A stretch of DNA of 64,000 bases. It comes from Thermocrinis sp. Lineage in GTDB: Bacteria > Aquificota > Aquificia > Aquificales > Aquificaceae. The DNA lies in the NCBI GenBank assembly GCA_028276475.1, contig JAPYWH010000004.1, positions 1 to 64,000 of the forward strand. The letters are read 5' to 3'. Shown here piece after piece: positions 7,629 to 9,532 of the stretch. Made by a program: the position numbers and the translations under genes. Within the stretch, counting starts at the first letter, position 1; each line of letters starts with the position of its first letter. The notes beneath the pieces are model-generated. The model was not told where the DNA came from. It worked only from the letters and a program-made list of their open reading frames with translations, and did not search any database.

Positions 7629-8355
7629 GCTGATCGTTATTCCGTCAAGGCTCGGCTCTTCAAGGCTGAAGGAAAAGCCATTGCAAATTATAAAGGGAAG
7701 ACCACTTATAAGGTGGGTGGTGGAGGGTTGTTTGAGGACGGGAGAGGATGTTATCCTTGCGGTGGATAGTGAAAAAATTGCGGAGGCGGTAAAGGACCTA
7801 CCCGTTAAGGTAGTTTTTACTCCGTCGGACATACCCTCCGGGAGCGACCGGGTTGCCCATGTGGTTAAAGATTTGGACGTGGATTTTGTTATAAACTATC
7901 AGGGGGACGAGCCCTTTGTTTATAAAGAGGATGTGCAAAGGCTATTTTTAGCCCTTGAAGAGGGTCCCGTGGCAACGCTGGCGGTTAGGGACCCCGACGC
8001 CTACGGGGACCCATCCTCTGTGAAGGTGGTTCTGGACAGAGACCAATACGCCCTCTACTTTTCAAGGAGCCCCATTCCCTACCTAAAGCAGGAGGACAGC
8101 TTTTATCCTCTCAAGCATGTGGGCATATATGCCTTCAGAAAGGATGTTTTGATGGATTTTGTGCGCTGGAAACCTTCCCACTTGGAAAGGCTTGAGTCCC
8201 TCGAACAGCTCCGTCTCTTGGAGAGGGGAATAAGGATCAAGGTCCTCCTCAGCCAAAACTACTACCATGGCGTAGATACGGAGGAGGACCTAAAGCTGGT
8301 GGAAGAAAAGCTCACTTTTTACCTTTCACATACTGCTCCCAATTCTCTGGGTTGA
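7621..8355 (+). CDS. kdsB: 3-deoxy-manno-octulosonate cytidylyltransferase
   Basis: [21 protein letters not shown]...; VNYQGDEPF-like block '[11 protein letters not shown]'. Confidence 0.9.
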
Positions 8356-9532
8356 AGGGAGAAAGCTCCCTTAGGGTCTTTACCGTCTTGGGAAACTCCT
8401 CCGCCACATAATCCACATCCTCCTCTGTGTTGTCCCTTCCAAAGCTAAAGACCAAGGAGCCGTTGGCAACCTCTTTGGGAACTCCTACGGCAAAGAGCAC
8501 GTGGGACTGCTTAAGTGCCAAAGATACGCACGCGGAACCAGATGCGGTTTCCACTCCCATTAGGTCTAACCTCAAGAGCATCGCCTCTCCCTCTATGAGA
8601 TGAACGATCAGAGAAAGGTGATGGGGCAGTCTTTGGGTGGGATGTCCTGTGAATTCTATGTAATCAAGCTTCTCTTCAATGGCTTTTTTGAGCTTGTCTC
8701 TGTAGTAAGAGAGACTTGTCATTCTGTCCTCAAGCTCCTTCATGGCTAACTCTGCTGCTGCACCAAAGCCCACAATGCCCGGCACATTCTCGGTGCCAGC
8801 CCGGACGCCCCTCTCTTGGGTGCCACCCTCTATCAGAGGTCTGATCTTTACACCCTTCCTAGTCCATAGGGCACCCACACCCTTAGGTCCATACATGAGA
8901 TGGGCAGTAAAGGACGCCGCATCCACGCCCCAATCTTGGAGGTCCACCGGATAGTGTCCCAAGGTAGGACAGGCATCCGTATGGAATATTACCTTAGGGT
9001 TCTTCTCCTTTGCAGCCTTTACAAGCTCCTTTATGTTCTGGATGGTGCCGATCTCCCTGTTGGAGTGCCCTATGCTAACTAAAACTGTGTCGTTTCTTAT
9101 TGCTTTCCTCACCTGGTCTGGATGGATGAGCCCATACCTGTCTGGCTTTAGATAGGTTACCTCCCATCCTTCCCTTTCCAAGGTCTTTAGGGGATGCAGG
9201 ATGGAGTGATGCTCTATATCGGTGGAGACTATGTGTCTTCCCTTCTTTTCGTATGCCTTGGCTATGCCCTTTATTGCCAAGTTGTTGGCTTCTATACCAC
9301 CGGAGGTAAAGACGATCTCCTCCGGAGAGTTTGCATTTATAAGCTGGGCGACCTTTTCCCTTGCGTTGTTTATAGCCTTTTTGGCAACTTGCCCAAAGCT
9401 GTGCAAAGAGGTGGGATTGCCAAAGTGTTCCCTAAAGTAAGGTAGCATTGCGTCAATAACCTCTTGGGCTACGGGCGTTGACGCTATATGGTCCAAATAA
9501 ACAACCCTTCTGCCAAGCTTTTGTATAAACAT
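8312..9532 (-). CDS. NifS/IscS-like class V aminotransferase fold protein lacking the PLP lysine
   Basis: Full-length similarity to IscS; Cys loop [16 protein letters not shown] present; SAHK motif replaced by TAHL. Confidence 0.85.

Follow-up and report, generated by a model that had tools for sequence, protein, structure and literature searches.

The window analysed here is a 64,000-nucleotide stretch of Thermocrinis sp. DNA (contig JAPYWH010000004.1), from the family Aquificaceae. It encodes, on the minus strand, a homologue of IscS and NifS that lacks the Schiff-base lysine and that we designate IscS*. Residues of IscS* were mapped to E. coli IscS from NC_000913, and the features of the locus are as follows.

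8312..9532, minus strand: iscS*, lysine-less IscS/NifS homologue of 406 aa; complete ORF with an ATG start
9536..10564, minus strand: mrp/apbC-type P-loop Fe-S carrier, upstream of iscS* with a 3 bp gap (PF10609, 346 bits)
9293..9295, minus strand: Ile80, replacing IscS Thr76 (alignment and orthologue comparison)
9056..9058, minus strand: Arg159, replacing IscS Asn155 (alignment and orthologue comparison)
8966..8968, minus strand: Pro189, replacing IscS Gln183 (alignment and orthologue comparison)
8897..8899, minus strand: Leu212, codon CTC, at the Schiff-base lysine position, IscS Lys206 (alignment to E. coli IscS)
8528..8530, minus strand: Cys335 in SGSACVS, the retained sulfur-accepting cysteine, IscS Cys328 (Cys in 52/52 orthologues)
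8450..8452, minus strand: Val361, replacing the substrate-binding IscS Arg354 (alignment and orthologue comparison)
8354..8374, minus strand: LRELSPF, putative retained C-terminal IscU-docking segment (motif L[RK]xxSP in orthologues)

The DndA and SspA profiles of PADLOC match IscS*, as expected for a relative of NifS. A DndA/SspA identity was rejected because no dndCDE or sspBCD genes lie beside iscS*, which is flanked by mrp and by a cytidylyltransferase-like (KdsB-like) ORF. ApbC-type Mrp proteins usually carry a CxxC motif. The Mrp encoded at 9536-10564 (minus strand) reads ENMAYFICPETGNKY, and the second cysteine of its Fe-S motif seems to be missing. Elsewhere in the window, an Hma-like defence locus contains a DUF1156/HmaB-type DNA-adenine methylase that is split within 278-5055 (N-terminal part 278-1798, C-terminal part approximately 3709-5055, with about 1.9 kb between them), together with an HmaC-like ATPase at 5052-7628. 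Within this split gene, at 1806-3719 on the minus strand, is a tandem array of four short and closely similar coiled-coil-like genes (MARAIDLELLQLLEDKLGKE...); they encode a C-terminal hydrophobic segment, and the one protein tested had no match in Pfam.

The original prediction held that the protein encoded at 8312-9532 lacks the lysine equivalent to Lys206, and the alignment confirmed this: the codons around the site are CAT CTC ATG, encoding H211, L212 and M213. The other motif changes that it listed (HVNNEIG to HSNREIG, VDATQS to TDACPT and SGATES to SGGIEA) are all present in the ORF, and the sulfur-accepting loop SGSACVS is retained as it stated. In addition, Thr209 replaces E. coli IscS Ser203, and H104, D180, H205 and C328 of E. 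coli IscS are kept as H108, D186, H211 and C335. In E. coli IscS, Gln183 forms a hydrogen bond to the phenolate oxygen of PLP, Arg354 contacts the substrate, and the K206A and Q183E variants have no desulfurase activity, with some PLP still held by K206A (PMC9978102). As Lys206, Gln183 and Arg354 are all changed in IscS*, the damage affects the anchoring of the cofactor as well as the binding of the substrate and extends beyond one residue. The loss of Arg354, which the original prediction had missed, matters as much as that of the lysine. Overall, E. coli IscS and IscS* share 41.6% identity, the family, the Cys loop and the IscU-docking tail; however, Lys206, Arg354, Gln183, Asn155 and Thr76 of the former are all absent from the latter. 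In profile searches, IscS* matched PF00266 at 277.5 bits, and it fell below the equivalog cut-offs of both NifS (TIGR03402, 478 vs 530.75 bits) and the curated IscS model (389.4 vs 643.2 bits).

We searched 61 relatives and found orthologues of IscS*, at 63-96% identity, in nearly all genomes of the Aquificaceae and of a second family of the order. Residue-by-residue reading of 52 such orthologues revealed Leu in 35, Tyr in 17 and Lys in none at the Lys206 position; that is, Leu212 is not a sequencing error, since the lysine is missing from all 52. The accompanying changes were equally uniform: Asn155 to Arg and Thr76 to Ile in 52/52, Gln183 to Pro or Ala in 52/52, and Arg354 to Val in all 51 orthologues that cover the site. 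Cys328, His104, Asp180 and His205 were retained throughout (52/52). Among 83 comparison proteins, which were classed as canonical by their possession of the lysine, Lys, Gln and Arg were kept in every one. Across the phylum, 105 of 136 genomes gave a match, a few of them through a canonical copy only. In genome G028 (99% complete) IscS* seemed to be missing, but a true loss was rejected; it is most likely an assembly gap, as the mrp ORF there runs to the contig end.

An orthologue of IscS* is already present in the PDB. Entry 9wfy, an Aquifex-type 'cysteine desulfurase' with wild-type residues, aligns without gaps over residues 1-405 and matches the protein of genome G009, which is 84% identical to the Thermocrinis protein; it shares Leu212, Arg159, Pro189, Ile80, Val361 and Cys335 with IscS* and differs from it by ordinary sequence drift only. 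The same protein was deposited as nested mutants, namely 9wfe (R159N, L212K), 9wfb (plus V361R), 9wf8 (plus P189Q), 9wew (plus I80T), 9wer (plus I16A) and 9wep (plus G155M, A188V and T209S), with up to nine back-substitutions in all. The series thus reads as a stepwise restoration of the PLP site by the depositors, and the family is accordingly known to at least one laboratory. Our literature search found no published account of the Aquificales IscS* or of the 9wfy series.

The original prediction cited the IscS of Archaeoglobus fulgidus as a precedent, and the comparison bears this out. The IscS2 sequence (PDB 4eb5, 4eb7 and 4hvk; checked against 4eb5) has the IscS fold with Asp, Ala and Leu in place of Lys206, Gln183 and Arg354 and with the cysteine kept; IscS* shows the same combination of losses with a retained cysteine. 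Unlike IscS*, to which it is 43% identical, IscS2 keeps Thr76 and Asn155 and has lost His205. A further entry, 4r5f, is IscS2 with Lys in place of the Asp. A. fulgidus IscS is reported to be without desulfurase activity and to act as a cysteine ligand donor to the IscU cluster (PMC7585200, PMC9769115). Methanosarcina acetivorans IscS1 also lacks the essential lysine by published description; unlike IscS*, it is not the sole IscS of its genome, which has other IscS copies, one of them shown to be active (PMC7585200).

Next to iscS*, mrp (PF10609) directly precedes the gene in nearly every locus read in the two families. Two closed genomes of the second family carry the whole set in one block, mrp-iscS*-iscU-PPloop-tusA-DUF1858-nfu-aroE, and iscS* and iscU are contiguous in most loci of that family. 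In the Aquificaceae the block lies in two parts, mrp-iscS* and iscU-PPloop-tusA-DUF1858-nfu(-aroE). The iscU half of the window genome (G000) is on another contig (C44; L251, 1533-3771), where the genes overlap or abut. The order of iscU, the PP-loop gene, tusA, DUF1858 and nfu was identical in 9/9 genomes read. By its linkage to mrp, iscU, tusA and nfu, iscS* is associated with the assembly of Fe-S clusters and with a sulfur carrier rather than with an unrelated use of the fold. The PP-loop protein of the block is ThiI/MnmA-like and carries a CxxC motif in addition to its ThiI and NFACT-R_2 domains; since a separate, strongly matching MnmA is encoded on contig C39 of the window genome, the PP-loop protein is something other than MnmA.

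E. coli IscU binds IscS at helix 309-316 and at the C-terminal helix 379-391 (PMC2854127). The region of the 309-316 helix and the Cys loop are both strongly conserved across the IscS* orthologues, with an entropy of 0.11 and 0.13, respectively, against 0.62 overall. The 379-391 tail as a whole was not low in entropy (mean 0.77), and only its LRxxSP core is kept. This core was found in 51 of the 52 orthologues, the exception being on a truncated contig. Fifteen second copies that are canonical, with all PLP residues, occur in other genomes of the order, and the docking motif was present in none of them (0/15). Gene linkage and the docking motif together indicate that IscS* is functionally tied to IscU, as judged from sequence. 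Because the 15 canonical copies keep the PLP residues and yet have no docking tail, they suggest a division of labour in which the canonical copy, where present, would probably serve other pathways and IscS* would serve IscU.

The original prediction called for a search of the rest of the genome for a canonical desulfurase, and the outcome was negative. The window genome (97.2% complete) encodes three PF00266 proteins: IscS*, an aminotransferase and GcvPB. The latter two were rejected as desulfurases because their sequences are of the serine/alanine-glyoxylate-type aminotransferase and of GcvPB, so that the PF00266 search revealed no other IscS/SufS-type desulfurase in this genome. A closed genome of the same genus, G003, likewise had no further IscS/SufS-type match. 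By place and score, G003, G007, G015, G016, G022 and G029 have, besides IscS*, just weaker matches of aminotransferase or glycine-decarboxylase type. IscU is encoded in nearly all genomes of both families, and that of the window genome has its three Cys, Asp and Lys103 all present. SufBD was absent from every genome of the two families searched, and we rejected it as the actual machinery because it is present only in a third family of the order, which is without IscU. That third family (e.g. G037 and G041; L086-L091) also lacks IscS* and has a short SufB-like protein that resembles a minimal SMS-type Fe-S system. Cysteine desulfidase (PF03313) was rejected as a PLP-free alternative, being found in none of the nine genomes searched. 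Desulfhydrases, cystathionine lyases and rhodanese/MST routes may also release sulfur from cysteine.

Lysine-less proteins occur in other phyla as well. Among the matches listed, they were found in Dehalococcoidia (L120 and L233), Saganbacteria (L161), Thermoplasmatota (L113) and Rokuibacteriota (L170 and L240); the cysteine is kept in all of these and Arg354 is lost in all but L170. Their genomes, among the matches listed, also encode canonical desulfurases, which makes the Aquificales genomes without one unusual among those examined. In a maximum-likelihood tree of lysine-less and canonical IscS proteins, calculated with the active-site columns removed, the Aquificales proteins grouped with L120 and L161 (support 100/100), and A. 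fulgidus IscS2 grouped with the Thermoplasmatota protein L113 (support 100/97) outside that clade. The AU test did not reject a single lysine-less clade (p-AU 0.172). This tree replaced a first one that included the active-site columns and grouped the lysine-less proteins more strongly. In the Rokuibacteriota protein L236, which is the L170 gene, Leu stands for Lys206 and Gln for His104, and Gln183 and Arg354 are kept; the gene adjoins iscU, and the protein is nested among canonical ones. Its lysine may have been lost very recently, or the sequence may contain an error. Three Aquificaceae encode a further lysine-less NifS-like protein that is more diverged (L056 in G034, L071 in G033 and L073 in G004). 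Its lysine site reads DGPSLLGPQG, DGPFLLAPQG or GHYFYAPHY and its cysteine site SSPC or NSPC. The gene adjoins that of an aldehyde ferredoxin oxidoreductase (AFOR_C), and the product is perhaps a sulfur-handling partner of the tungsten enzyme.

We propose that IscS* is probably a PLP-free IscS homologue that serves as a partner to the scaffold IscU and not as a cysteine desulfurase, its cysteine relaying inorganic sulfur or ligating the nascent cluster. IscS* would dock IscU in the manner of IscS, and Cys335 on its flexible loop would relay persulfide sulfur or act for a time as a thiolate ligand of the IscU-bound [2Fe-2S] cluster. The sulfur would come from the inorganic pool of the cell (sulfide or polysulfide), possibly via the co-encoded TusA, and Mrp and Nfu would carry the finished cluster onward. 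There is a parallel in Methanococcus maripaludis, which is without SufS and uses sulfide as the sulfur source of its Fe-S clusters (PMC8351635). The initial reading of the ORF as a lysine-less homologue, perhaps a sulfur or Fe-S scaffold or a user of external sulfide, is consistent with all of the evidence. TusA persulfide as the donor, suggested by the presence of tusA in the block, is an attractive but unproven idea. E. coli IscS sends sulfur to either IscU or TusA, which are competitors for it (PMC11302665). The linkage of tusA gives no direction of sulfur flow, and the PP-loop protein may be the only one that TusA serves. The stronger proposal, that a whole order (two families) makes Fe-S clusters on ISC machinery without a cysteine desulfurase, with TusA loading inorganic sulfur onto the cysteine of IscS* and sulfur thus passing from TusA to IscS* to IscU, the reverse of IscS to TusA in E. 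coli, is put forward tentatively, and we consider it possible but somewhat doubtful.

Other explanations were weighed against this assignment. Cys335 could act purely as the last ligand in the coordination of the IscU-bound [2Fe-2S] cluster, with no persulfide carried, both sulfurs given by free sulfide and TusA unrelated. This is the published A. fulgidus model, in which Cys321 of IscS ligates the cluster in the IscS-IscU structure and IscS is considered not to be a sulfur donor (PMC7585200, PMC9769115), and the sulfide use of M. maripaludis also speaks for it. However, in all genomes examined for it tusA lies inside the iscU block, which suggests that sulfur travels on a carrier at some step of the pathway, and we regard a pure ligand donor as unlikely, if worth serious attention. 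Some non-covalent binding of PLP by IscS* might persist; it is conceivable because His104, Asp180 and His205 are kept and because E. coli K206A holds some PLP. An enzyme that used such PLP without a Schiff base, with another base (e.g. His108 or the retained GPKG lysine, Lys217), for slow desulfurase or other activity is nevertheless improbable, given that Arg354, Thr76, Asn155 and Gln183 are lost too and that as many as nine back-substitutions, L212K included, were introduced in the deposited Aquifex-type structures.

A canonical paralogue could in principle supply the desulfurase in trans, leaving IscS* as a regulatory or dimer partner only, and the 15 complete second copies elsewhere in the order lend this idea some substance. 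They are missing, however, from the window genome and from several closed genomes, and not one of them carries the IscU-docking motif; a desulfurase hidden in the approximately 3% of the window genome that is missing is argued against by the closed genome G003. We therefore judge this arrangement very improbable. Sequencing error or a decaying pseudogene was ruled out, its probability being practically nil, as the same changes in intact frames recur in all 52 orthologues of two families. The assignment of IscS* as a probable PLP-free partner of IscU is the one that we retain.

A lysine-less IscS as such is already known from Archaeoglobus and Methanosarcina. What is new is a lysine-less IscS that has no other IscS-type protein beside it in its genome, is conserved in two families and is tied to an mrp-iscU-tusA-nfu block. 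The usual view is that sulfur enters the ISC pathway through a cysteine desulfurase, and in one order, two families seem to retain the body of IscS as a partner of IscU and to have discarded its chemistry, several of their genomes having no other desulfurase of the IscS/SufS type. The annotation 'cysteine desulfurase', which is the PDB name of an orthologue, can be wrong. If our proposal is true, it separates two jobs of IscS, the making of persulfide and the docking and assisting of IscU, and would offer a heat-stable system in which the latter can be studied alone; it would also bear on how Fe-S clusters can form when their sulfur does not come from cysteine.
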